A DNA stretch of 20,025 nucleotides, from positions 1-20,025 of the IMG/VR virus record IMGVR_UViG_3300023116_000466. One strand, given 5' to 3'. Below the pieces are notes generated by a model. That model had not been told where the DNA came from. It made no database searches and saw nothing but the letters and a program-made list of their open reading frames with translations. Position 1 is the first letter of the stretch. Each line of letters starts with the position of its first letter. A program made the translations under genes and the position numbers. The DNA is from a virus. Of this stretch, positions 1 to 20,025 are shown one piece after another.

Positions 1-738
1 CGTGGGTGGCAGGGTCGTCGTCGAGGTCGTCGTCGTCGAGGTGGTCGACGATGTGGACGTGGACGTAGTAGGTGGCGTCGTCGTGGTCGTCGGAGCCTGG
101 GTCGTCGTGGTCGTAGTGGTAGATGGTGGTGCCTCGCTGGTCGTGGTCGTCGTAGCGACGGTGGTCGTGGTCGAGGTGGTGGTTGGAGCGGCGGTCGTGG
201 TGGTAGTCGTCGGTGCGGCCGTGGTGGTCGTCGTGGTCGTGGTCGGAGCCAGCGTTGTCGTCGAGGTCGTGGTGGTGGTGGTCGTGGGCGGCGACCAGCC
301 CTCGGTTGAGAACGACACCGCCATCGACCCGGTCGGCACCTCCATCCCAGCAGACTCGCGCTGGAACGTCGTGAACCGCAGGACGTAGTCGCCCGCCTCG
401 GGTGTCAGGTGCAGCTTCGCCGAATAGCAGTCGCCGGTCTCGGTGTGGTTCCCGTCGTCGTCTGCCGCATACGTCGCGCCGGTCGAGTCGATCAGCAGCA
501 GGTACGGGTCGGGTGTCGTGGTGTGATCGAGCGGGCAGTCCACGCCGGACGACGCGATGACGTGCAGCAGCGTCTCACCGTCGAGCGTCAGGCTCCAGTC
601 GACGAACGGGTCGTCGGCCGACACCGACACCGTCCAGCCATCGGCCGCTGCCGGGTGGACCGGCCCGACCAGGGCGATCAGATACGACGCCGCGAGCGCG
701 GCTCTACTCGTCCGGCGGGTCCAGGTCGACAGTCGCAT
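1..738 (-). CDS. Secreted PPC-like protein with a long Thr-rich tail (3' end beyond the window)
   Basis: The frame starts at the ATG at 738-736 and is open to base 1, giving 246 visible residues. Residues 1-32 look like a Sec signal peptide: Arg at 2, 8, 9 and 12, a hydrophobic stretch at about 13-25, and a likely cut after HPAAA before Asp33. Residues 33-146 resemble a bacterial pre-peptidase C-terminal (PPC) beta-sandwich: DPYLLLIDSTG, an Asp-rich turn (DDDGN), then LTPEAGDYVLRFTTF. Cys68 and Cys104 could form a disulfide. From residue 152 to the edge the protein is mostly Thr with some Ala, Pro and Ser, like the glycosylated linkers of actinobacterial surface proteins. The start overlaps the preceding 56-aa gene by 35 bases. 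It is the last visible gene of the late block. It could be a surface or superinfection-exclusion factor, an envelope-acting lysis protein, or a glycosylated appendage; any C-terminal domain lies outside the window. Confidence 0.72.
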   Translation of the reverse strand, partial: MRLSTWTRRTSRAALAASYLIALVGPVHPAAADGWTVSVSADDPFVDWSLTLDGETLLHVIASSGVDCPLDHTTTPDPYLLLIDSTGATYAADDDGNHTETGDCYSAKLHLTPEAGDYVLRFTTFQRESAGMEVPTGSMAVSFSTEGWSPPTTTTTTTSTTTLAPTTTTTTTTAAPTTTTTTAAPTTTSTTTTVATTTTTSEAPPSTTTTTTTQAPTTTTTPPTTSTSTSSTTSTTTTSTTTLPPT

Positions 739-874
739 CGTCGCCAGCCTCGGCTTCGGCGACGCGCGCACTCAGGACTTCGTTCTGCGCCGTGAGCACG
801 GCGATCTCGAACTCGTTCGGGAATCGGGTCTGGAGGATTGCCAGGACCCGGTCGGTCAGGTTGATCTCGGTCAT
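704..874 (-). CDS. Small acidic coiled-coil-like protein, 56 aa
   Basis: The ATG at 874-872 overlaps the stop of the upstream tail-fibre gene as ATGA, which suggests translational coupling and fixes the start. The product starts MTEINLTDRVLAILQTRFPN and ends in an acidic tail (VDLDPPDE). Residues 22-44 (EFEIAVLTAQNEVLSARVAEAEA) have the heptad spacing of a short coiled coil. I do not recognise the family. Placed right after a fibre whose own C-terminus is helical, it might help fibre trimerisation or assembly, but that is inference. The end of the gene overlaps the start of the secreted Thr-rich protein in another frame. Confidence 0.66.
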   Translation of the reverse strand: MTEINLTDRVLAILQTRFPNEFEIAVLTAQNEVLSARVAEAEAGDDATVDLDPPDE

Positions 875-2004
875 GCTTCGAGCGTAGCGACCCGAGCGCG
901 TAGGTCTTTCACGGCGAGGACGAGGAGCGACAGGTAGGCGGTCTTGTTGATGCCGGTCAGGAACGGGACGTCCTCGGCGTCCGTTCCACGAGAGGCGAGG
1001 AACGGTGAGATCGCGTCCATGTCCTCAGCGATCGGGCCGATCTCGGGGTAGCCCGGTGCGTTGATGCGGTTCCACATCTTGGGCACGACCGAGTCGATCA
1101 TGTCGGCGGTCAGGTGCTCACCGAGGTCGTCGGTGATGTTCTCCTTCTCGGCAGCGGTCGACGAGTTCCGGCGCAGGTAGTAATACCCGAAGGTCAATGC
1201 CCACTCGGCGTCGTTGCCAGTACCGGTGGTCGGGCTGAGTGCGTAGACCGACTTGCCGCTCGTGTTGATCCGGAGGTTGCCATCGCTGAGAACTGCGACA
1301 TGGTTCGAGTTGCCTGCCCGCAGGCTTAGCTGGTCGCCGTCGGCACGGATGCCGACGTAGGAACTGCCCGTCGTTGAGTTGTCCACCAGGCTGAGGATCG
1401 CACCGGCATCGGTCGACTCGAACGTCGCCACGTTGTTCACGGTGCCTGCGTTCACATGCAGCTTGGCGCTCGGGGTAGAGGTGCCGATGCCGACCTCACC
1501 GCCAGCTTCGATCGCCATCCGGGTGAGGTTGTTCGTGGCGAAGTAGATGAGGCCAGACGACGTTTCGTTCTTGACATACAAGTCGTCGTTATCTGGGAAC
1601 CCAAGAAACCCGAGCCGACTGTTGAGGTCGAACAGGCCGATGTACGGCCCCTCGTTCTCGCCTGCATTGTTCTCCAGTCGGAGAAGCTCGGATGAGCCAT
1701 CATCTCGGCGGACGTGAAGCGGCGCTTGCGGTCCGGTCGTGCCGATGCCCATCCTGCCAGAGTCCGACATGATCGTATGGTCGCTGCCTGCAACCTCGAA
1801 CCGGATGTCGTTGCCGCCGCCGCCGTAGATGCGGGCGAGGTCGGTGTCCGCCGAGTCGGTGAACTTGATCGCGAAGTTGCTCGTGCCGGTCGAGTTCGTG
1901 TCCTTGAGAGTCAGGACCGGCGTCGCATCCGTCAGCGTCAGCGAGTCGATGTCGAGGTCGTTCAGTTGGGCGGCGGTCAGCACCTGACCGGATGTGAAGC
2001 TCAT
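871..2004 (-). CDS. Tail fibre/appendage with C-terminal S74-type intramolecular chaperone
   Basis: A 377-aa protein. The N-terminus (FTSGQVLTAAQLNDLD) is typical of actinophage tail appendages and probably attaches the fibre to the tail tip. The middle has two beta-helix style repeats, GIGTTGPQAPLHV (86-98) and GIGTSTPSAKLHV (172-184), as seen in trimeric fibres. Residues 281-377 match the peptidase S74 chaperone domain: SSTAAEKENI at 281-290 aligns with the usual SDxRLKENI, IGPIAEDMDAISP follows, and the end is a coiled coil (LRARVATLEA). In this family a Ser-Lys pair cuts the chaperone off after trimerisation; here Ser282 and Lys287 keep the five-residue spacing. The usual Asp and Arg/Leu between them are replaced, so cleavage may be altered. 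It likely binds the host surface. It lies 7 bases after the tail-tip gene. Confidence 0.88.
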   Translation of the reverse strand: MSFTSGQVLTAAQLNDLDIDSLTLTDATPVLTLKDTNSTGTSNFAIKFTDSADTDLARIYGGGGNDIRFEVAGSDHTIMSDSGRMGIGTTGPQAPLHVRRDDGSSELLRLENNAGENEGPYIGLFDLNSRLGFLGFPDNDDLYVKNETSSGLIYFATNNLTRMAIEAGGEVGIGTSTPSAKLHVNAGTVNNVATFESTDAGAILSLVDNSTTGSSYVGIRADGDQLSLRAGNSNHVAVLSDGNLRINTSGKSVYALSPTTGTGNDAEWALTFGYYYLRRNSSTAAEKENITDDLGEHLTADMIDSVVPKMWNRINAPGYPEIGPIAEDMDAISPFLASRGTDAEDVPFLTGINKTAYLSLLVLAVKDLRARVATLEA

Positions 2005-2011
2005 GGCGGTC

Positions 2012-3682
2012 CTATCCTAGGAGGTTCTCGTCGAGCACGCCGAACAGGTCGTCGTCGAGAATGAACGGCGAGAACAGGTCGGCGTTCTCGGAGAAGGTCG
2101 TGAGGGTCGCGCCGCCCCTCGGGGTGATGTCCCAACGCACACCGACGATCATGCCGTCGAAGCTCATCGTGGACCCGGCTGCGTCGATCGCGACCGAGGT
2201 CGCGTCGCCGGTCGAGAACTTGACCATCTCCCAGCCGTCGTTGTCGCCAGGGAACACGGGCGGGAACCGCAGCGACCGCAGCACCATCGGGTCGCCGTCC
2301 TCCGGGCCGTAGCGTTGGAGGAACGACTCGGCGCACGCGAGCGTCGCCGCGTCGGAGACGGTGTGCATGTCGGTCCGGTGCTGGTCCTGCACGCCGTAGG
2401 TGTTCTGGGTCGAGGTCTGGCCTGCGGTCTGCTCGGCACCGACGTCGCCCTCGTACGCGGTGACCTGGAACGTGATCGCACCCGACGAGGCGGCGGAGTC
2501 GGCGGTGGCGTTCACGGCGAGCAGCGACTGGCTCGGCACGTCGACCGTGATCGTCTGCGTGCCGGTGTCCCCGGCGGAGAGTTTGACGAACGTCCCGAAC
2601 GTGTCCCAGTCGCCGAACACGTCGGCGGTCTCGACGAAGATCTTCACGGCAGCGTCGACCGTGTTGGCGGTGACGTTTAGGTACAGCTTCGTCGAGTCCG
2701 GTGCGGGCCATGCGACGGCGGACTGCCGCCCGAGGGACGCGTACCCGATCGAGGTGCCCGAGGCGAGGTCGGTGCCGCTGATGTAGTCGTAGTGGGTCCG
2801 CATCGTGAACGACGCAGCGGTGAACCCGTACGAGGTGCCGACCTCGAACTCAGCGTTGGCGAAGTCACGCGCCCCGGCTGGTGGCGACGACACGCTCGTG
2901 TCGTAGGCGATCAAGGGCTCCAGGTGCGACACCGACAGGGTCGGGTCGTCGGTGACGGTCGGCCCGGACCGTGCCCGGTAGGTCAGGAGGTTCCGCTTGC
3001 CGGTCGAGGTGCGGACGATCGGCAGCCCGTGCCGGACGAAGAAGTCGCCGTTCTCCGCCTCGATCGCTTTCCGCAGGTAGTCGCCGATGTTGGCGAACTC
3101 GGGGAACGCCCACACGTTCTGATCGGACGACCCGCCGTTGATGAGGTAGTGGTCGGAGGTGAACTGGGTCGAGGTCGCCAGCGACAGCACGAACGGCATT
3201 AGCCCGTCGGATGGCAGGGCGTCGTCACCGAACGCGACCTCGCCGCCTTCGGTGTTGGCCGGGTCGTAGAACCGGCAGAACGCGAAGTAGGTGCCGAGCT
3301 GCCCGAGCGCGTCGGTGCAGGTCAGGATGACCCGGCTGTCGAACTTGTTCGCGAGCTTCAGGTCGACGTCGGTGACGTTCCCGGAGAAGAACCGCGGCGT
3401 GTAGTCGCCGAGGTCGGGCGACTCGCCGGTGACGGTCGTGTAGAAGTCGCACTCGACCCCGACGAAGCGAGCGTTGGCCCAGGTGCCTCCGCCGCCCGGT
3501 GTGAGCGCCCCGTCCGAGTTGTCCAGCTCGACCAGCATCCGACCGGCTGAGTACGAGGTGGCGATGGCGGTCTTGCCGTACTGGATCGACACGCCGAGCA
3601 CACGGTCGATCGGGATGGCGTCCGGGTCGGCCCCGCCGTCCTTGTCTTTCGGTTGGAGTGCGATGGCGTAGTCCCAGGCCAT
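2012..3682 (-). CDS. Minor tail / tail-tip protein with inserted beta-sandwich domain
   Basis: A 556-aa protein directly after the tape measure (3-base gap), the usual position of the distal tail or tail-hub protein. The N-terminal region (VLGVSIQYGKTAIATSYSAG, then LVELDNSDGALTPG) resembles actinophage minor tail proteins, which share a DNSDGxxTP-type motif. Residues about 330-411 form a separate domain, starting near LYLNVTANTVDAAVKIFV and ending near SSGAITFQVTAYEG, that closely resembles the C-terminal domain of the larger tail-tube protein at 7429-8187. After it come an Ala/Gln/Thr-rich stretch (415-430) and a C-terminal part rich in Asp and Phe. The protein probably forms the tip ring that joins tube, tape measure and fibre. 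Exact family unknown; the tail-tip role rests mainly on position and N-terminal similarity. Confidence 0.75.
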   Translation of the reverse strand: MAWDYAIALQPKDKDGGADPDAIPIDRVLGVSIQYGKTAIATSYSAGRMLVELDNSDGALTPGGGGTWANARFVGVECDFYTTVTGESPDLGDYTPRFFSGNVTDVDLKLANKFDSRVILTCTDALGQLGTYFAFCRFYDPANTEGGEVAFGDDALPSDGLMPFVLSLATSTQFTSDHYLINGGSSDQNVWAFPEFANIGDYLRKAIEAENGDFFVRHGLPIVRTSTGKRNLLTYRARSGPTVTDDPTLSVSHLEPLIAYDTSVSSPPAGARDFANAEFEVGTSYGFTAASFTMRTHYDYISGTDLASGTSIGYASLGRQSAVAWPAPDSTKLYLNVTANTVDAAVKIFVETADVFGDWDTFGTFVKLSAGDTGTQTITVDVPSQSLLAVNATADSAASSGAITFQVTAYEGDVGAEQTAGQTSTQNTYGVQDQHRTDMHTVSDAATLACAESFLQRYGPEDGDPMVLRSLRFPPVFPGDNDGWEMVKFSTGDATSVAIDAAGSTMSFDGMIVGVRWDITPRGGATLTTFSENADLFSPFILDDDLFGVLDENLLG

Positions 3683-3685
3683 CGG

Positions 3686-6397
3686 TTAGCTGCCCGTCGT
3701 GATCGGGACGTTGCCATTGCGTCGTGAGTACGAGTCGAGGGTCCGAATGATGTCCGAGGCGTCCGAGCCGACCGGCATCTGGATCGTGACGTTCATGGTG
3801 CCACCGCCACCGAACCCGGCCGGAAGCGGCGACGCACCCGGCGCAGTCGACAGCGGCACGACCGCTTCCGGACCGGCCTCCCCGATGAGCGCGGTGGTCG
3901 GGCGGCGGACGATCGCACCGGTCGCACCTGCGAACCCGCGCAGCTCACGCCCGATGCCGAAGTCGTCGACACCGAACACCTCGCTCAGTACTCGCACGTT
4001 GAACTCGATGTCCGCGCCTTCGAGCGCAGCCAGGATCAGTTGCAGCTCGGCGATCTCGTCGATGCCTCGACCAGCCGCCTCGCCGATAGCAGAGAGCGAC
4101 GTCACCATCGTCTGCACCGAGACGAGCGCAGCGGGATCGTCGAACACATCGATCTTCGCCAGCATCTCGTCGAGGACTCCGGCGACGTCATCGCCGCCTC
4201 GGACGAACGCCTCCGCCATGTCCGGCGCGTTCTTCTTGCCGATCTGCGCGGCGGTCTCCGCAAGCTCCGAAGCGACCCGCTCCGCCTCGTAGAGCGCGTT
4301 GCCTTCGCCGAGGATCGCCTCCATGAGCTTCGAGAACTCGTCACGCATCCGGAACGTCTCGTCGGCGCTCAGCCCCATCGCACGCGCCATCTCATCCGCC
4401 CCAGAGATCACCTCGTCGATCGGTCCGCCGGTCTCGGCGAGTTCACCGCCGAGCGTGTCAACCTCGATACCGGCACGGTGCGCTTCGATCGACATGCCGT
4501 TCAGCGACTCGGCGTGGTTCTGGACGAGCGTGTCGACCCGGCCCATGATCTCCAGGTTCGACAGGTTCTGCCGCTGGTATCCGGCGATGATGCCCTCGCC
4601 ATCGAGGTAGATGTCGTTCAGTAGCCGGACAGCGTCGCCGCTATCGACCAACGCCTCTGCCTGAGCTTCGAGTTTCTTGCGATTGTCGTCGAACGCATCA
4701 GCGGTCTCATCGACGACGTCGAGCATGTCGTCGAGTTGCTTGATCTCCAGGTCGCCTGCGTCGAAGGCGTCGATCAGCGCTTCCGCCAGCAGACGCTCCT
4801 CTCCGGTCAGGTCCCGTATCGCCGTTCGCATCGCGTCAGCCGACTTGGTGTTTTCCAGTACGTCCTGCAACTCCTGGAACGCGTCGGTGCCGCTCTCAGC
4901 GACGACGGCCACGTCGTTCATCGAGATCCCGAGTTCGTCGAACAGCGGCAGCGTGTCGTTCCCCAACGCCAACCCGAGCGCCGTGGACGAACCGACGATC
5001 GTGTCGACATCGTCGGTCGTGTCGTCCGCTGCGTCGCCGACGTCCCGGATCGCGGCGGCGAGTTCTTCCATCCGGCCGATCATGATGTGCGTCGGACTGT
5101 CGGCGTCGATGAACTCCTGGGTGAGTTCTTCCTGCCGGTCCTTCGCCTCGCGAGCGTTCCCGGCCATCTCGCCGAAGACGTAGAACAGACCGCCGAGAGC
5201 GATAGCGATCTGACCGATCGGGCCGGACGCCACCACGATCGCCGTGATCCCGGCTGCGGCTGCCAACGCTGCCGGGTGCATATCCTGGAACCCTTCGATC
5301 AGGAACTGCACACCTTCGAGCATCTGCAACACGATCGGGATGATCGTCTGCCCGATCCCGATCAGCGTCTCCTGAAGGTCGGCCATCGCCTGCTGAAACT
5401 TGAACCCGGCCGTGTCCGACACGACAGCGAACGCGTCGTCGAGCGTGCCGGTCGTGTCGCGCATGTTGGCGAAGATCTGCTCGGTCGTCGCGACGTTCGC
5501 GCCCATGAGGTCCATGACGCCGGACAGCGCTCGGACGTTGCCGAATACCGAGGCGGATGCGGCGGCGTTCCCGTCGAACTCCTCGGCGAGCGTCTGGAGC
5601 GTCGCCAGGAGGCCTTCGTCCTTGATCTGTTGACGTAGTCCTTCGGACGAGAGGCCCATGCCTTCGAGCGCTTCCTCGGCCTGCTTGGTGGGTCGCAGCA
5701 GCGAGGACAGGATGCCGCGCACCTGGGTCGCTGCCTCGGCGGCGTTCGTGCCGGTACGAGACAGAGCGGCGAACGCTGCGCCGACCTCGTCGAACCGGAC
5801 ACCCATCGCAGAAGCGATCGGGAGGACTCGACCCATCGACCCGGCCAGCTCGGATGCTTCGAGCTTGCCTTCTCGGACGGCGGCGGTGAGGACGTCGGTT
5901 GCTTGGACTGCCGACAGGTTCTCGGCTCCGTATGCGTTGAGCGCCGAGGTGGCGAGGTCGGCGATCTCGGTGACTTCGCCGAGACCGACCGCTGCGGCTT
6001 GCGCTGATGCTTCGAGGGTCTCCATCGCCACCGCTCCTCGGAGACCGGCAGACTGGATGAAGAACATGGCGTCGGCGAGAGCACCGGGTGCCTGGGCGGT
6101 CTCGCCCGATAGCGCCCGCACCGACTCAGCCATCGCGTCGACTTCGGACCCGGCGATACCGACCAACGATTCGATCTTCGTCATCGAGTCGTCGAAGTCG
6201 ACAGCAGCCTTCACGGCGGCCGCACCGACACCGATAAGACCGAGGGTAAGCGGACCCGACGCCGCACGTGCGGCGGTCGTCGCCGCCTTCTGAAACTCGC
6301 CCGCCTGAAGCTGCGCCTTCGCCATTCCGAGCGTGTACTGCTTCGTGTTGGCGGTGACGATCGTGTTGATGCGGGCGACTGTCGTGCCTACGGCCAT
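3686..6397 (-). CDS. Tail tape measure protein (TP901 type)
   Basis: A 903-aa protein, the longest in the window, beginning right after the frameshifted chaperone gene ends. Residues 66-80 (VDFDDSMTKIESLVG) and the Ala-rich helical region to about 340 match the phage tape measure TP901 core. Hydrophobic segments at about 345-367 and 376-410 are typical membrane-interacting segments of such proteins. Residues 411-800 are mainly charged helix. Near 836-849 the motif ALIGEAGPEAVVPL is a hallmark of tape measure C-termini. It fixes tail length during assembly and is ejected with DNA. At about 0.15 nm per residue the length predicts a tail near 135 nm, a rule of thumb only. ATG at 6397 abuts the stop of the upstream frame. 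Confidence 0.93.
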   Translation of the reverse strand: MAVGTTVARINTIVTANTKQYTLGMAKAQLQAGEFQKAATTAARAASGPLTLGLIGVGAAAVKAAVDFDDSMTKIESLVGIAGSEVDAMAESVRALSGETAQAPGALADAMFFIQSAGLRGAVAMETLEASAQAAAVGLGEVTEIADLATSALNAYGAENLSAVQATDVLTAAVREGKLEASELAGSMGRVLPIASAMGVRFDEVGAAFAALSRTGTNAAEAATQVRGILSSLLRPTKQAEEALEGMGLSSEGLRQQIKDEGLLATLQTLAEEFDGNAAASASVFGNVRALSGVMDLMGANVATTEQIFANMRDTTGTLDDAFAVVSDTAGFKFQQAMADLQETLIGIGQTIIPIVLQMLEGVQFLIEGFQDMHPAALAAAAGITAIVVASGPIGQIAIALGGLFYVFGEMAGNAREAKDRQEELTQEFIDADSPTHIMIGRMEELAAAIRDVGDAADDTTDDVDTIVGSSTALGLALGNDTLPLFDELGISMNDVAVVAESGTDAFQELQDVLENTKSADAMRTAIRDLTGEERLLAEALIDAFDAGDLEIKQLDDMLDVVDETADAFDDNRKKLEAQAEALVDSGDAVRLLNDIYLDGEGIIAGYQRQNLSNLEIMGRVDTLVQNHAESLNGMSIEAHRAGIEVDTLGGELAETGGPIDEVISGADEMARAMGLSADETFRMRDEFSKLMEAILGEGNALYEAERVASELAETAAQIGKKNAPDMAEAFVRGGDDVAGVLDEMLAKIDVFDDPAALVSVQTMVTSLSAIGEAAGRGIDEIAELQLILAALEGADIEFNVRVLSEVFGVDDFGIGRELRGFAGATGAIVRRPTTALIGEAGPEAVVPLSTAPGASPLPAGFGGGGTMNVTIQMPVGSDASDIIRTLDSYSRRNGNVPITTGS

Positions 6398-6939
6398 CTA
6401 CTTCCTAGCCTTCGCTCGTTGGGCGGCCTGTTCTCGTTCAGAGTGTTCGATCCGGTAGAGAGCGATCCACTCGGTCAGTTCTTCGGATGACATGCGGGCG
6501 AGTAGCTCGCCGACAGTCATGCCGAGGTCGCGTGCGAGGCGGAAGTAGAACCGGCGCTCGGGGTTACCGCCCGAGAAGCCTAGGAGTCTTTTCCCGCCTC
6601 GTTGACCTTGTCCTCGGTCATGCCCGATCGCTCGAAGCACATCGTCCACAACCGCTCGATCACGGTCGCTGACTTGTCCATGAGCGCTTCCATGTCTTCG
6701 GTCTCGAAGATCGGGTCGCCAGTCTCGGGGTCGACGATGCAACCCTGAAGCGTGCGAGCCCACATGCCGAGAACCTTGTTGGCGTCGATCCCGTCGCCCT
6801 GCTGCGCGAGTTCCATCACAGCGGCGCGGGACTTCGCTGACATCGACTTGATGCCGACGGTCACGCCCCACTCGGGAACCTCGACCGTGTCGGTCGGGGT
6901 GTCTGCTGCGGCGAGGATCGCGGCTCGTAGGTCGGTCAT
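6398..6939 (-). CDS. Tail assembly chaperone GT fusion made by -1 frameshift
   Basis: This is the long product of a two-frame gene: residues 1-117 from 6939 to 6589 in the first frame, then base 6589 is read again and 63 further residues are decoded to 6398, giving 180 aa. The slippery site GGGAAAA (plus-strand ttttccc, 6589-6595) sits as G GGA AAA in the first frame and fits the X XXY YYZ rule exactly. The T part has a conserved look: ERRFYFRLARDLGMTVGELL followed by ELTEWIALYRIEHS, like the gpT-type motif of siphovirus tail chaperones. No good independent start codon with a ribosome site precedes the T frame. In lambda and its relatives the G and GT proteins keep the tape measure soluble and recruit tube subunits. 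The position between tube and tape measure genes is diagnostic. Confidence 0.87.
6580..6939 (-). CDS. Tail assembly chaperone G (unshifted product), 119 aa
   Basis: The unshifted reading ends at TAG (6582-6580), three codons after the slippery AAA. The start chosen is the ATG at 6939-6937 (MTDLRAAILAAADTPTDTVE), because an AGGAG sits at 6950-6946 with a 6-base spacer; an in-frame ATG eight codons upstream lacks this. The protein is acidic and helical, ending NEAGKDS. Its size and place match gpG-type tail chaperones, which are made in excess over the fusion. A 14-bp hairpin lies immediately upstream, so its level may be set separately from the tube gene. Confidence 0.87.
   Translation of the reverse strand: MTDLRAAILAAADTPTDTVEVPEWGVTVGIKSMSAKSRAAVMELAQQGDGIDANKVLGMWARTLQGCIVDPETGDPIFETEDMEALMDKSATVIERLWTMCFERSGMTEDKVNEAGKDS
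6589..6595 (-). promoter_or_regulatory. Programmed -1 ribosomal frameshift site GGGAAAA
   Basis: On the minus strand the codons read gcG GGA AAA gac tcc tag; slipping back one base pairs the two tRNAs on GGG and AAA. The new frame is open for 63 codons to 6398. A 6-bp stem CTCGGG/CCCGAG with a 7-base loop begins 13 bases downstream (6575 to 6557) and may stimulate slippage, although 5-9 bases is the usual spacing. Confidence 0.85.
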
Positions 6940-7008: not shown

Positions 7009-7416
7009 CTAGACGGTGCCTCGGGTGACTGCGCCGGTGACCTGGAAGTCAGCGGAGAAGGTCACGACGTCACCGACGGGGGACGACAGCGAGTAGCTCG
7101 TAAGGATGCATTCGCCGGTGTACTTCGACTCGCCGGAGGTACCGGTCGGCTGGTACTCGAACGAGCGGCTGGCGGGTTCGGCTCCGCCCTTGAGGTAGCC
7201 GTCGACGGTGGCGTCGTACATGCCGGAGATCGAGATGGTGGCGGATTCGAGCGAGACGATGTAGCTGCGGCTCGACGCGCCGAACGCCGTTACCTCTGCG
7301 GTGTCGGTTGTCTCGGGGAAGTCGACGCTGTTCAGGACGTCGCTGATGGGCTGAAGGGTGCCGCCTGTGTCGTCGATCTTGAAGACGGCGGACTTGCCGG
7401 TGGTGAATGTGGGCAT
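7009..7416 (-). CDS. Tail tube protein, short paralogue (135 aa)
   Basis: Starts MPTFTTGKSAVFKID and contains DTAEVTAFGASSRSYIVS and GMYDATVDGY, then ends SSPVGDVVTFSADFQVTG. This is the beta-rich pattern of siphovirus major tail proteins, whose hexameric rings stack into the tube. It shares MPTFxxGKS, the VTxxGASSRxxI core and the PVxDVxxxxADFQ end with the larger protein encoded directly upstream, so the two are tandem paralogues. It has no extra C-terminal domain. A strong AGGAGGA (7430-7424) lies 7 bases before the ATG and overlaps the stop of the upstream gene, as expected for a highly made protein. A 14-bp hairpin follows. It could be the main tube subunit, with the larger one mixed in, or the reverse. 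Confidence 0.82.
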   Translation of the reverse strand: MPTFTTGKSAVFKIDDTGGTLQPISDVLNSVDFPETTDTAEVTAFGASSRSYIVSLESATISISGMYDATVDGYLKGGAEPASRSFEYQPTGTSGESKYTGECILTSYSLSSPVGDVVTFSADFQVTGAVTRGTV

Positions 7417-15280: not shown

Positions 15281-17173
15281 CTACTCGCTGGTCGGGGTCA
15301 GGGATAGATCTGCCTCGACGCGGCGGGCCTTGCCGCCGATCGAGTAGCCGCGGAGCTGGCCCGCTTTGACGAGATCCCAGGCCCATGACTCCCACACGAC
15401 GCCCATGAACGGGGTCTCGGCTGGGAACTCGACCTTGCGGATGTCTTCGCCTGGGAGCGAGAGCGATGTCTGGATCGGCATCGGCCAGGTCAGGATCTCG
15501 ACCATCTCGCCCGCGGCTTTGTCGGAGTGCTGGAGGAAGATGGTGCGGTCGCCGGAGCGGACCCAGTCCCAGATCGCCTTCTGGAGTGTGGCGGCGTCGA
15601 TGAACTCGCCGTGGCCGTCGAGGCGGCCGGGGACGTACACCGGGCCGAGGGTGTAGCGCTCCTCGGCTTTGGCGAACGGGACGACGGCGTGGAGCGCTGC
15701 GAGCTTCTCGGTGGTGTCGCCGGTCGTGTACGGCGGAGCGAACCCGAGCGCTTCGAGGCGGTCCTCGATGACGCTGCGAGCGAGGTCGAGCATCATGTCG
15801 CCGCTCGACTTGTGAGTGAGTTGGTGGGCGGCGATGAGCTGCTCAGGTGTGAGACCATCGAGCGATCGAGAGAACGACTCGATCTGGGCGAGGCGTTCCT
15901 CGGCGTCGGCCATCGTGTCGTAGCAGCCGAAGCGTCGACCACGACCCTCGGAGTAGACACAGAAGCGACCATCCTCCTCGACGATCTCCTTGCGGAACTC
16001 GTGACCGTATCCCTTCGTCTCGTCGTCGTAGCCGTAGCCCGACTCGATCTCGACGTCGACCTCGGCGAGGATCGGCTTCCACGCAGCGCAGACATACCCG
16101 GCGCGGACCGCCGCGCCGAACTTCAGGCACGCGCCGATCTTGTAATAGGCGCAGTTGTCGCAGCGACGCTGACCGTCGGCGGGTGCGTAGGCGTCGGGGA
16201 GGGCGTGCGGGATCGGTTCGCCGTCGGGGTAGCGGATGTGGGCTTTGTCGGTGTCCATGCTTTTCCTGGTCGACAGCGGGTGCCCCTCGGGCAGTAGGTC
16301 GGTGTCGAAAGCTGATCGAGGGAATCGTCCCGTGCGTACCGCGGTGAGGAACGCGTTCACCCTGGCGTATGCCCACTGGTCCGCTGATCCGACGTTCGGT
16401 CGAACCGATGCTGGGTTGGTTCGGTAAGCGCCGACACCACGCTCGAACACGGCGCTCAGCATTCGCAGGGTGACTCGCTTCGAGGCGGTGCTGCCGTGCT
16501 TCTCGTTGTGGTCCTCGACCTTGCGTTCGAGCGCATCTCGGACTCGGGCCGAGACTTCTTTCTTGATTCGGTCGCTGATGTCGCCAGCTGGTCGAAGTTC
16601 CGAGGCTGATCGAAGCGCCTGTCGATCGGTCGGGGTCAGGCGTCGATCTTCGTCGATGGCGTACACCTGCATCAGGACGGCGGGGTCGTCGCTCGATGCT
16701 TCTCTCGTGTCGCCTGCGCGTTCGATCGTGCCAGTGCGGAACACTTCGACCGCGACGCCTGTGGCGTACTCGGTCGGTCCTGGCGGCTTCGGGATGGCGT
16801 AGAGGTACGCACGCCCGACACGAGCATCAGATCCCGCGACCTTCTCCAGTCGGTCTCGTGTGCGTTCAGCCCACTCCATCGCTGCCATCCTGTCCTGCCC
16901 GAGGGAACCGCCCCACAGCAACCACGCCACGATCCCTGGCGTGGGTCGATCGGTCTCCCCATTGATGAACGCTCGACTGTCGTCTGTCTCGATGTCGCCT
17001 CGATGTCGAGCGAACCACGCGGCCATCCGGGTCACCTTGTCCTCGGACACGTTGCCGCCTGCCATCGCCCGAGCTTCGCGGATCGTGGCAGGGCGCAGAC
17101 CATCACCAGCGAACTCCAGCAGGTCCAAGCCGCGGGACGCGTTGGCGGAGATGTACGAGGGGACTGCGACCAT
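15281..17173 (-). CDS. Multidomain prohead protease (XkdF-like) with N-terminal and Cys-rich domains, 630 aa
   Basis: The ATG at 17173-17171 (MVAVPSYISANASRGLDLLE) is chosen because the upstream extension is Arg/Ala-rich and overlaps the terminase end. Residues 1-110: GLRPATIREARAMAGG, KVTRMAAWFARHRGD and TPGIVAWLLWGG, a domain I know from many phage capsid-maturation proteins. Residues 335-370: RCDNCAYYKIGACL, then VCAAWKP, so Cys338, 341, 349 and 362 form a HiPIP-like or metal-binding cluster. Residues 411-446: FCVYSEGRGRRFGCYDTMAD and AEERLAQIESF, a small domain often found with the cluster. Residues 497-620: XkdF-like serine protease, with YTLGPVYVPG, His549 in FLQHS and Ser611 in RGYSIGGKARRV as likely catalytic residues. 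It should process the prohead. It is encoded before the portal instead of after it. Residues 110-330 are unassigned. Confidence 0.84.
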   Translation of the reverse strand: MVAVPSYISANASRGLDLLEFAGDGLRPATIREARAMAGGNVSEDKVTRMAAWFARHRGDIETDDSRAFINGETDRPTPGIVAWLLWGGSLGQDRMAAMEWAERTRDRLEKVAGSDARVGRAYLYAIPKPPGPTEYATGVAVEVFRTGTIERAGDTREASSDDPAVLMQVYAIDEDRRLTPTDRQALRSASELRPAGDISDRIKKEVSARVRDALERKVEDHNEKHGSTASKRVTLRMLSAVFERGVGAYRTNPASVRPNVGSADQWAYARVNAFLTAVRTGRFPRSAFDTDLLPEGHPLSTRKSMDTDKAHIRYPDGEPIPHALPDAYAPADGQRRCDNCAYYKIGACLKFGAAVRAGYVCAAWKPILAEVDVEIESGYGYDDETKGYGHEFRKEIVEEDGRFCVYSEGRGRRFGCYDTMADAEERLAQIESFSRSLDGLTPEQLIAAHQLTHKSSGDMMLDLARSVIEDRLEALGFAPPYTTGDTTEKLAALHAVVPFAKAEERYTLGPVYVPGRLDGHGEFIDAATLQKAIWDWVRSGDRTIFLQHSDKAAGEMVEILTWPMPIQTSLSLPGEDIRKVEFPAETPFMGVVWESWAWDLVKAGQLRGYSIGGKARRVEADLSLTPTSE

Positions 17174-17214
17174 GCGTCGATCGTAGTCGACGAAAACGAC
17201 CGCCGCCGCGGCCG
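17174..17214 (-). promoter_or_regulatory. Intergenic gap with weak -10-like box before the protease gene
   Basis: TACGAT (17185-17180) lies 6 bases upstream of the ATG, the same distance as the TACACT box before the small terminase, but no -35 box with suitable spacing is seen. No Shine-Dalgarno is visible either. The protease may be read through from the terminase mRNA or from a leaderless start here; evidence is weak. Confidence 0.28.
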
Positions 17215-18537
17215 TCACACTGTCCAGGGCGACTTTCGGGTCGACTGGAAAGGGACCACCGCCTGCGGCTCTCGACCGCCGACCATCAACTCCGACAGCG
17301 CCCACACGAGAGCGTCGAGCCTGTCGGGTGATGGTCCGTCTGGTGTCCAGGTGCACAGCTGATCTTCGAGTTCAGGGAACGCTCCCGCGTGGTGGACCCG
17401 GCCCTGCTCGTACAGGGCAGCGACGGGTTCGGCTCGGGTGCGCTTGCCGCGGGACGCGTGGACGAGCTTGACGGGGACCGAGGCGTCGATGGTGCGAAGG
17501 GTGTGGGAGATCATGTCGCCGCCCTGGTTCGCCTCTGCGACGATCCGGTCGGCCTTGTGGACGTGGTGCGCGGTGACCGCAGCGGACGCCCACTCGGCGG
17601 GGCTGCCCTTCATCGAGCGGTCCTCCAGGACGTAGCCGTGGCCGTGGTCGTCGACGCCTGCGACGATGATGCCGGTCTCGTCCGAGTCGACGTTGGCCGA
17701 AGCGGCTGGGTCGATCGCGACGACGACCCGGCGGAGGTTCGGGACGGTGGTGGTGCGGGCATCGTCGAGCATGTCGCGATTCCACAGCGCGCCGTCGGCG
17801 TCGAGGAGCAGTTCGGCTTCGAGTTCCTGACGACCCAGGCGGGTGCCCTCGTAGCGGTGTCGCATCTCGTCGAGGAACGTCGCGGACAGGTTGGCGGCGT
17901 TCTCGTAGGTCGAGCCTCTGGTCACGACGCAGTCGGGCCGGTCGGCGAGGTTGCGGATCAGGCGAGTCGGTCGAGGGGTGGTGGTGGCGACCGCCCGCGG
18001 TCGATCGCCGATCCGGAGGCCGAACATCAGCTGGTCCCATGCGTCGGGGTAGCGCCAGGCGGCGACCTCGTCGGCCCAGGCGAGATCGTGGTTCGGTCCG
18101 CGGAGTCGGTCGGGTTCGTCTGCTGAGTAGGTCGTGGCGATCGCTCCGTTCGGGAACGTGACCCGCCGCTTCGAGGGTTCGTATCGCGGGCGGGTCTCGT
18201 CAGGGAAGATGCGAAGCAGGCCGGACTCGCCCTCGATCATCGTGTCGCGGACGTCCGCGGCGGTCGCTCCGACGAGTGCGATGCGTCCAGCGTGACCAGA
18301 CTCGACCTGTCGTCGCACCCACTCAGCACCTGACCTGGTCTTGCCGAACCCGCGGCCAGCGAGGATCAGCCAGATGCGCCAGTCGCCGTCGGGAGCGAGC
18401 TGCGCTGGGCGTGCCCACACCGACCAGTCGTAGAGGATCGACCGGATCATGTGCGGGTCGTAGTCCTCGACCCAGTCGATGCCTTCGGCTTCCGCGGCGG
18501 CGATGAGCCGCTGCACCACCGATCGCTCGTCGGTCAC
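17215..18537 (-). CDS. terL: Terminase large subunit
   Basis: The GTG at 18537-18535 overlaps the stop of the small subunit (GTGA), fixing the start; the frame upstream is Arg-rich shadow sequence. The 440-aa product has an ATPase domain with Walker A GRGFGKT at 61-67, Walker B DLAWADE at 151-157 and a coupling motif ATTTPRP at 184-190. The nuclease domain holds Asp276 (VVVAIDPAAS), Glu335 (RIVAEANQGGD) and Asp408 (PDRLDALVWAL), which match the three acidic metal-binding positions. The words RAEPVAALYEQGRVHHAG and FPELEDQL belong to the COG5323/Terminase_6 group, also found in gene transfer agents. It drives DNA packaging into the prohead and cuts the concatemer. Confidence 0.95.
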   Translation of the reverse strand: MTDERSVVQRLIAAAEAEGIDWVEDYDPHMIRSILYDWSVWARPAQLAPDGDWRIWLILAGRGFGKTRSGAEWVRRQVESGHAGRIALVGATAADVRDTMIEGESGLLRIFPDETRPRYEPSKRRVTFPNGAIATTYSADEPDRLRGPNHDLAWADEVAAWRYPDAWDQLMFGLRIGDRPRAVATTTPRPTRLIRNLADRPDCVVTRGSTYENAANLSATFLDEMRHRYEGTRLGRQELEAELLLDADGALWNRDMLDDARTTTVPNLRRVVVAIDPAASANVDSDETGIIVAGVDDHGHGYVLEDRSMKGSPAEWASAAVTAHHVHKADRIVAEANQGGDMISHTLRTIDASVPVKLVHASRGKRTRAEPVAALYEQGRVHHAGAFPELEDQLCTWTPDGPSPDRLDALVWALSELMVGGREPQAVVPFQSTRKSPWTV

Positions 18538-19041: not shown

Positions 19042-20025
19042 GTCGACGAAGTTTCGGGCCTTGCCAGTTCGTTCGAGGATGGGCTTCGTGTCGGTGTGTC
19101 GCTGGTATCGGTTGCAGATGATGTCGACGTAGATCGGGGAGATCTCGATGCCGTGGCCGCGTCGGTTGTTGGCGTCTGCGGCGAGGATGGTCGAGCCTGA
19201 TCCGCAGAAGGGGTCGTAGACGATGTCGTTGTCGTCGGTGTAGGCCTTGATGAAGAACTCGGGGAGGCCGACTGGGAATGCTGCGCCGTGGCCGGTCGCT
19301 TCGTGAGATGAGGCGAAGGTTGGGAGTCTGTTGGATGGGTAGGCGAGTCCTGGTTCGCTTCTGATCTTGAAGTCGAACCCTGGCTGGCCTTGTCGTTCGG
19401 CGTTGCTGCTCCCTTGGAGCTTCGCCCAGTTGGTGTCGCCCGCGCCTGGTCCTAGTGCCTGTGGGACTCGTTCCGATTCGTAGGTGACTGCGTCAGGGTT
19501 GAATCGCCACTCCTCGCCTGGGCGGGTGAACTGGTAGACAGGCTCGAACGCGTTCTTGAATCGACGGGCGGGTCTCATCGGGACGCCGTTGCGTTCCCAG
19601 CAGTACTCGGTCGCGATGTTCCATCCCCATCGTGTGTAGTGGGCGTTGACGAGATCCATGACGTAGGTCTCCATCGAGAGGCCGTTCGATCCTGCCTTGA
19701 TGTTCATGAAGTACGAACCGTCGTCGGTCAGGTGGTGGAGGATGTTGTCCGCGATTGGTTGATACCAGTCGACGTACTGGTCGGGTGGGATCGGTTGGAA
19801 GGGGGAGTCCTCGTCGTACTTCCTGCGGTCGGCGTATGGCGGGGATGTGACGGCGAGGTTGATCTGTTGGCCGTTGAGGAGGCGGGCGACGTCGTCGGGG
19901 TTGCGGGAGTCGCCGCACATCACTCGATGGTTGCCGAGTAGCCAGATGTCGCCAGGCTTCGCGATGCGAGGCACTTCTGCGAGCGGTTCGGGTAGGTCGG
20001 TGTCGTCGGGCTGTTGGAACGACTG
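19039..20025 (-). CDS. DNA methyltransferase, beta-class order, 5' end beyond the window (probable ParB-like fusion)
   Basis: The frame is open through the right edge; 328 residues are visible, starting QSFQQPDDTDLPEPLAEVPR. A GTG at 19974 could be a start, but the codons above it read as coding sequence joined to IAKPGDIWLLGNHRVMCGDS, the usual link between a ParB/Srx-like domain and an N4/N6 methyltransferase in phages. In the visible peptide, the catalytic motif is SPPY at 61-64 and the SAM-binding motif is DPFCGSGST near 271-279, i.e. motif IV before motif I (beta order). The target-recognition stretch lies between. It methylates adenine N6 or cytosine N4 in DNA, possibly to protect phage DNA from host restriction. 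It ends 31 bases before the small terminase. Confidence 0.85.
   Translation of the reverse strand, partial: QSFQQPDDTDLPEPLAEVPRIAKPGDIWLLGNHRVMCGDSRNPDDVARLLNGQQINLAVTSPPYADRRKYDEDSPFQPIPPDQYVDWYQPIADNILHHLTDDGSYFMNIKAGSNGLSMETYVMDLVNAHYTRWGWNIATEYCWERNGVPMRPARRFKNAFEPVYQFTRPGEEWRFNPDAVTYESERVPQALGPGAGDTNWAKLQGSSNAERQGQPGFDFKIRSEPGLAYPSNRLPTFASSHEATGHGAAFPVGLPEFFIKAYTDDNDIVYDPFCGSGSTILAADANNRRGHGIEISPIYVDIICNRYQRHTDTKPILERTGKARNFVD

Follow-up and report, generated by a model that had tools for sequence, protein, structure and literature searches.

A short open frame at the left end of a viral DNA stretch raises the question of why a phage should encode what looks like a bacterial surface protein, and what such a protein would do during infection. 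The stretch (the window) comprises 20,025 nucleotides of IMG/VR record IMGVR_UViG_3300023116_000466. An initial annotation had described its first 738 positions as a gene for a secreted PPC-like protein with a Thr-rich tail, located in a virion gene cluster, possibly acquired from an actinobacterial host and acting on the host envelope. We re-examined this gene, recovered its complete form from a second contig and compared its parts with those of other phages and of bacteria.

Parts of the surface protein

On the minus strand, the frame from 738 to 1 is open for 246 codons and runs to the window edge, and the remaining five frames of the same stretch contain 1-8 stops. Val-rich ORFs on the plus strand opposite the Thr tail were rejected as antisense shadows. 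The features used below are as follows.

1..738, minus strand: 246 codons from the 5' end of the gene for the surface protein, an open frame; the full gene is L002:5753-7222, 489 aa
643..738, minus strand: signal-peptide-like region, residues 1-32, MRLSTWTRRTSRAALAASYLIALVGPVHPAAA with DG following the putative cut; from charge, hydrophobic core and small residues (rule-based)
298..642, minus strand: PPC-like beta ectodomain, residues 33-147, with Cys68 and Cys104; from alignments A4/A10, sub-threshold PF04151 matches and an AF2 model
1..297, minus strand: start of the Thr/Pro-rich stalk; from sequence composition
704..874, minus strand: 56-aa ORF between the fibre and surface genes; conserved in relatives
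871..2004, minus strand: tail-fibre protein with a weak S74-chaperone-like C-terminus; upstream neighbour, given as context and outside the module

Residues 1-32 carry a net charge of +4 and a hydrophobic core and end in A-A-A before the D at the putative cut, so that by a rule-based check they fit the signal peptide with cleavage site that had been proposed. Nine homologues likewise have a basic n-region, a hydrophobic core and, around the predicted cut, small residues. The Thr-rich tail begins at about residue 150 and has some 96 residues inside the window, in agreement with the earlier estimate of at least 95. The frame and its domains are kept in at least nine phages at 44-91% identity and the N-domain has a dN/dS of 0.07-0.54, which argues that the frame is not a chance occurrence. 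For every part of the module compared dN/dS was <1, and by this measure the surface-protein module is under purifying selection. The 56-aa ORF (starting MTEINLTDRVLAILQTRFPNEFEIAVLTAQNEVLSARVAEAE...) overlaps the start of the surface gene by 35 bp and occupies the same position in at least seven related loci; it is strongly conserved in related phages and belongs to no known family.

The PPC-like domain was modeled by AF2, at moderate confidence, as an eight-stranded beta domain of sandwich type with a mean pLDDT of 69.5 (residues 33-147). Cys68 and Cys104 are invariant, occurring at equivalent positions in all aligned homologues. The Pfam family PPC (PF04151) was matched by six of eight family members with a best E-value of 0.0012, all sub-threshold; none of the eight reached the Pfam gathering score and the window protein itself gave no PF04151 match. 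Since the Pfam matches are sub-threshold only, 'PPC-like' is the right wording, and in this form the assignment of the initial annotation holds. Searches of the N-domain profile against PDB sequences gave nothing significant, Foldseek searches of its AF2 model against PDB and viral structures gave no match at E ≤ 0.001, and neither the N-domain nor the whole window matched the phage database used. The N-domain profile did match secreted subtilases of the host bacterial family, with an E-value of 3e-15. The same domain thus occurs inside secreted subtilases of that family, but its PF04151 match in the phage proteins stays below the curated cut-off and the phage protein contains no peptidase. 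In three of these subtilases (L063, L064 and L065) an inserted PPC-like domain is close to that of the phage; L063 has two peptidase S8 domains.

The missing 3' part of the gene was found on a 34 kb IMG/VR contig (L002) from the same virus, which is 99.97% identical to the window over positions 1-6490. The complete surface protein has 489 aa. Its Thr/Pro stalk is about 200-210 aa long with 48% Thr; after it come an acidic helical region, the hydrophobic segment STIDNGDRRTVIAVTAASTAALAM, a Pro-rich stretch and an Arg-rich tail, RKNRR. The continuation left of the window therefore supplies a C-terminal domain (C-domain), and neither a fibre nor a lysin domain, either of which would have spoken against the initial annotation, was found in the full 489-aa protein with Pfam, NCBIfam and PHROGs. 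Reading the 489-aa sequence by eye gave no LPXTG motif of the kind that marks sortase substrates, though a hydrophobic segment and a basic tail are present. The AF2 model of the C-domain is of low confidence (pLDDT 52.9).

A putative membrane partner and the lysis-gene setting

The gene that follows the surface gene in L002 starts with an ATG at 7219 and encodes a putative two-helix membrane hairpin of 58 aa. In window-type phages, where the hairpin (MRYIREIFILSWTLAGSAYILATLPPGS...) is encoded on its own, the stop of the surface gene and the start of the hairpin gene overlap as ATGA, with a Shine-Dalgarno sequence AAGGA(A). In other members both parts are fused, the chain terminating in a two-helix hairpin (FTLAGS...TLSG). 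The profile of the fused members (A9) aligned with that of the separate hairpin genes (A8) with an hhalign probability of 97.1% and an E-value of 6.7e-11, and an HMM built from fused members only picks up the next ORF in unfused loci of both phages and bacteria. C-domain and hairpin occur together, fused or as next ORF, at all 37 loci, 23 of them from phages and 14 from bacteria; 17 of the loci contributed to the combined HMM and 20 did not, and some are closely related. This constant fusion or adjacency suggests that the hairpin acts as a partner of the surface protein, and the architecture of the module as a whole is well supported by the sequence comparisons.

The small partner is also matched, separate or fused, by the profile of phrog_29041 (PHROGs v4, 55 aa), a family without a name or assigned function whose description includes neither the secreted partner nor the pairing. 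The hairpin was matched in 19 of the 22 records, against none of the 14 control genomes, and the three misses are a phage contig and the two genomes of bacteria; the match in contig G968 of the window virus had an E-value of 2.4e-5.

The existence of fused relatives, together with the position of the membrane gene in the -1 frame, suggested that the two genes might give one protein by -1 ribosomal frameshifting, and L002 does contain CGA-AAG, a sequence known for -1 slippage. It is not shared across the related loci, however, most of which have GAAGGAA, which fits a Shine-Dalgarno sequence for the ATGA-overlapping start. On these grounds frameshifting was rejected as highly improbable. The fused ORFs of L020, L029, L032-L034 and L036 contain an internal ATG behind a strong Shine-Dalgarno sequence, which may allow separate production of the hairpin in the fused phages as well. 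Candidate starts of such a nested in-frame gene in the large lake phages are L029:8613, L036:8460, L020:8619 and L033:8601.

In L002 the genes run in the order fibre, 56-aa ORF, surface gene, 58-aa membrane protein, holin, endolysin, small membrane protein and phosphoesterase/exonuclease. The holin is of the r1t type (E-value 2.2e-8) and the endolysin carries PG_binding_1. The surface gene thus sits where the tail-fibre genes meet the lysis cassette, and not in a virion gene cluster as had been assumed. The module also adjoins lysis genes in the other window-type phages, it lies next to VanY endolysins in L036, L029, L039/L040 and L044, and on actinomarine-type contigs assigned by binning to a 1.1-Mb genome from the same class it is found beside a DUF5675 protein and a holin. 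In the L043/L045 type the neighbours are small membrane proteins, one of which belongs to PHROG 32850 as in L002. No recognised lysis gene was found within ~3 kb of the module in DSL-LC01, L019, L020 and L033. Judged informally, the module stands beside lysis genes in most phage lineages.

Some further genes were noted in these loci. Three phage-like contigs binned in 1.1-Mb genomes of that class, L085 (G884:C30), L086 (G884:C36) and L087 (G816:C11), encode a very Glu-rich surface protein together with a hairpin; their neighbouring genes are for DUF5675, holin or phosphoesterase. In several lake phages the endolysin gene has behind it a gene for another apparently secreted protein (GGPIVLDGMDPVCHSGGEGTWGYIAQVLKK...), at L039:7364-8920, L040:9730-11187 and L044:10147-10953. 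In the window, a 691-aa protein encoded between portal and terminase (15284-17356, minus strand) has a long N-terminal part and a weak DUF5824 match mid-protein and ends in an XkdF-like protease region (Peptidase_S78_2), and a DNA methylase gene (N6_N4_Mtase; 19042-20025, minus strand) is cut by the contig end.

Relatives in phages and Acidimicrobiia

The surface protein is also present in the window-type phages L003, L004, L006, L010-L013 and L079, the L011 version having an additional FN3-like insert when inspected by eye. A more distant relative, Actinomycetia phage DSL-LC01, was first found as a weak tblastn match with an E-value of 0.3. The homology of its C-domain to that of the window-type phages was established by profile alignment (hhalign A3 vs P0003, probability 96.6%, E-value 4.9e-10), and the C-domain motif AP.E[IV]K..FE ... 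S.I..G.RR is present in the window-virus protein (A6 alignment and HMM). The DSL-LC01 protein (WJZ48438.1, 944 aa, 'hypothetical protein') resembles the window protein in having a signal-like N-terminus, beta domains, a Thr stalk and the same C-domain, but differs in that its ectodomain is another one, the hairpin is fused and no lysis genes adjoin it in the stretch seen. In the parts of the DSL-LC01 genome paper that were accessible to us WJZ48438.1 is not discussed. Use of a DSL-LC01-type query added 27 phage loci, including contigs of up to 210 kb. No Pfam family is matched by the C-domain or by the hairpin.

Bacterial genomes gave no match when scanned with the window-type C-domain alone. 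The widened C-domain family led to three MAGs, two named Acidimicrobiaceae and one Actinomycetota, in which RCC1/DUF4082-type surface proteins carry the same C-domain at the C-terminal end. Of 201 genomes sampled from the bacterial family to which G002 and G003 belong, 14 have a C-domain protein, each in single copy, and three of these 14 are the anchor genomes; in a sample of the whole phylum (397 genomes) the C-domain was recovered only in two of the anchors. Members of the family are thus found in window-type siphophages, in large lake phages and on Acidimicrobiia chromosomes. The gene neighbours in three bacterial genomes, named from our own reading of the sequences, are phosphoglycerate mutase and dCTP deaminase, an ABC transporter, and flavoproteins. 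Because such neighbours are housekeeping genes, the bacterial copies in these three genomes are not prophage genes. A plasmid search with the C-domain found nothing, and a search of the 201 genomes with the major capsid protein as a host clue gave no match and was uninformative.

In a tree that is based on a short alignment and has moderate support, phage and host clades are interleaved, and several transfers are therefore likely. Common ancestry of the phage genes with Acidimicrobiia host genes is well supported by these sequence relationships. The description as an actinobacterial-type surface protein is borne out by the C-domain in secreted Acidimicrobiia proteins and the N-domain in host-family subtilases. 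The proposed acquisition from the host stands as far as shared ancestry is concerned; the direction of transfer, which we could only infer, and the number of transfers are unproven.

The bacterial homologues also bear on the idea that the protein is a virion component, namely a tail-tip adhesin whose signal-like N-terminus is coincidental or serves as a membrane-crossing device. The surface gene directly follows the tail-fibre genes in the window and residues 94-213 gave a weak and probably spurious PHROG match to a major tail protein (E-value 7e-4) that extends over low-complexity sequence of the stalk. With a signal-like N-terminus kept in nine homologues, homologues on bacterial chromosomes and a constant membrane partner, a virion role is very unlikely.

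The ectodomains vary: an L-type lectin is found in L020 (E-value 1.6e-40), a SUEL-like lectin in L032 (4.8e-7), a PA14-like domain in L029 (7.9e-5) and RCC1 plus DUF4082 in the bacteria. Between L002 and L006 the N-domain is 80% shared and the C-domain 63%; between L002 and L012 the corresponding values are 45% and 88%. The identity patterns of ectodomain and anchor are thus in conflict among window-type phages, and judged from these patterns parts are exchanged between related phages. The initial annotation was largely right on the nature of the protein and missed the overlapping membrane-protein gene, the lysis-cassette setting and this ectodomain exchange. The 'glycan display' it had suggested should probably read 'glycan binding', since relatives carry lectin domains.

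Possible role of the pair

The preferred reading is that of a two-part surface-display module, shared with the host and anchored in the membrane, which would act late in infection, most likely in lysis; we assign it a probability of about 0.6. For the surface protein we infer the following topology and role. It would be exported by Sec late in infection, and its PPC-like ectodomain would be held beyond the cell wall on the Thr/Pro stalk of ~200 residues. The acidic helical C-domain, the hydrophobic segment and the Arg-rich tail would retain it at the membrane together with the 58-aa hairpin. The displayed ectodomain could then engage or loosen surface glycans at lysis, a LysZ-like step that would make lysis complete. 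A lysis-stage role is favoured by the gene position beside holin and endolysin and by the interchangeable, often lectin-type phage ectodomains. By this analogy an envelope step of the LysZ kind appears to be the most likely job of the module, with a chance somewhat short of even. More tentatively, the host-shared pair might form a third lysis component that breaks or releases an outer glycan or protein coat as holin and endolysin act. Against a lysis reading counts that the same module is kept in bacteria as chromosomal surface proteins, so that the anchor on its own is no device for lysis, and so does the lack of recognised lysis genes near the module in DSL-LC01, L019, L020 and L033.

LysZ of Corynebacterium phages is a lysis-cassette membrane protein thought to act on surface glycans (as described in PMC13056207). 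Such a factor in actinobacterial phages is a precedent for the lysis role proposed for the module, whose fit to it is one of genome position only. LysZ is a single gene product of 177 aa with one TM segment, belongs with a different envelope (mycolic acids, LAM) and is likened to the module by description and not by sequence. Spanins (Rz/Rz1 and the fused u-spanin), which link inner and outer membrane, share with the module the layout of two envelope proteins with overlapping or fused genes beside holin and endolysin; the likeness is one of layout, a lipoprotein is not known for the module and its homologues are ordinary chromosomal surface proteins. We know of no outer membrane in Acidimicrobiia hosts.

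The main alternative is superinfection exclusion or receptor masking, in which the ectodomain would cover or mimic a receptor and spare progeny from adsorption to debris. The protein is predicted to be secreted and surface-anchored, and the exchange of ectodomain and anchor between related phages is what receptor matching would predict. Precedents are T5 Llp, which brings about superinfection exclusion by a different structure (PMC9586334), and the secreted C. acnes phage protein gp41, for which such a role was suggested (PMC11480721). Exclusion proteins are often expressed early, as the T5 paper notes (PMC9586334), whereas the lysis-cassette position of the module in several lineages is late for this purpose, and we regard exclusion as rather unlikely. 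An ecological adhesin is less probable still: infected cells would adhere to particles or to one another via host-type glycan-binding domains and progeny would meet new hosts. The lectin, PA14-like, RCC1 and DUF4082 ectodomains of relatives would suit such a function, as would host copies that are ordinary chromosomal surface proteins, but it leaves the retention of the pair beside phage lysis genes unexplained.

For the surface-display module with its proposed lysis role, a limited search of the open-access literature found no paper describing the secreted/membrane pair. Acidimicrobiia are abundant aquatic bacteria, and as far as we know there is no description of how the envelope is crossed or broken by their phages. 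A pair conserved in several phage groups and in bacteria provides named targets for studies of lysis, exclusion and adhesion, and phrog_29041, a family without a function, gains a genomic context. The pair also suggests a possible LPXTG-free anchoring of surface proteins in Acidimicrobiia. The phages seem to share with these bacteria a surface-anchoring device, which they would use near the end of infection.
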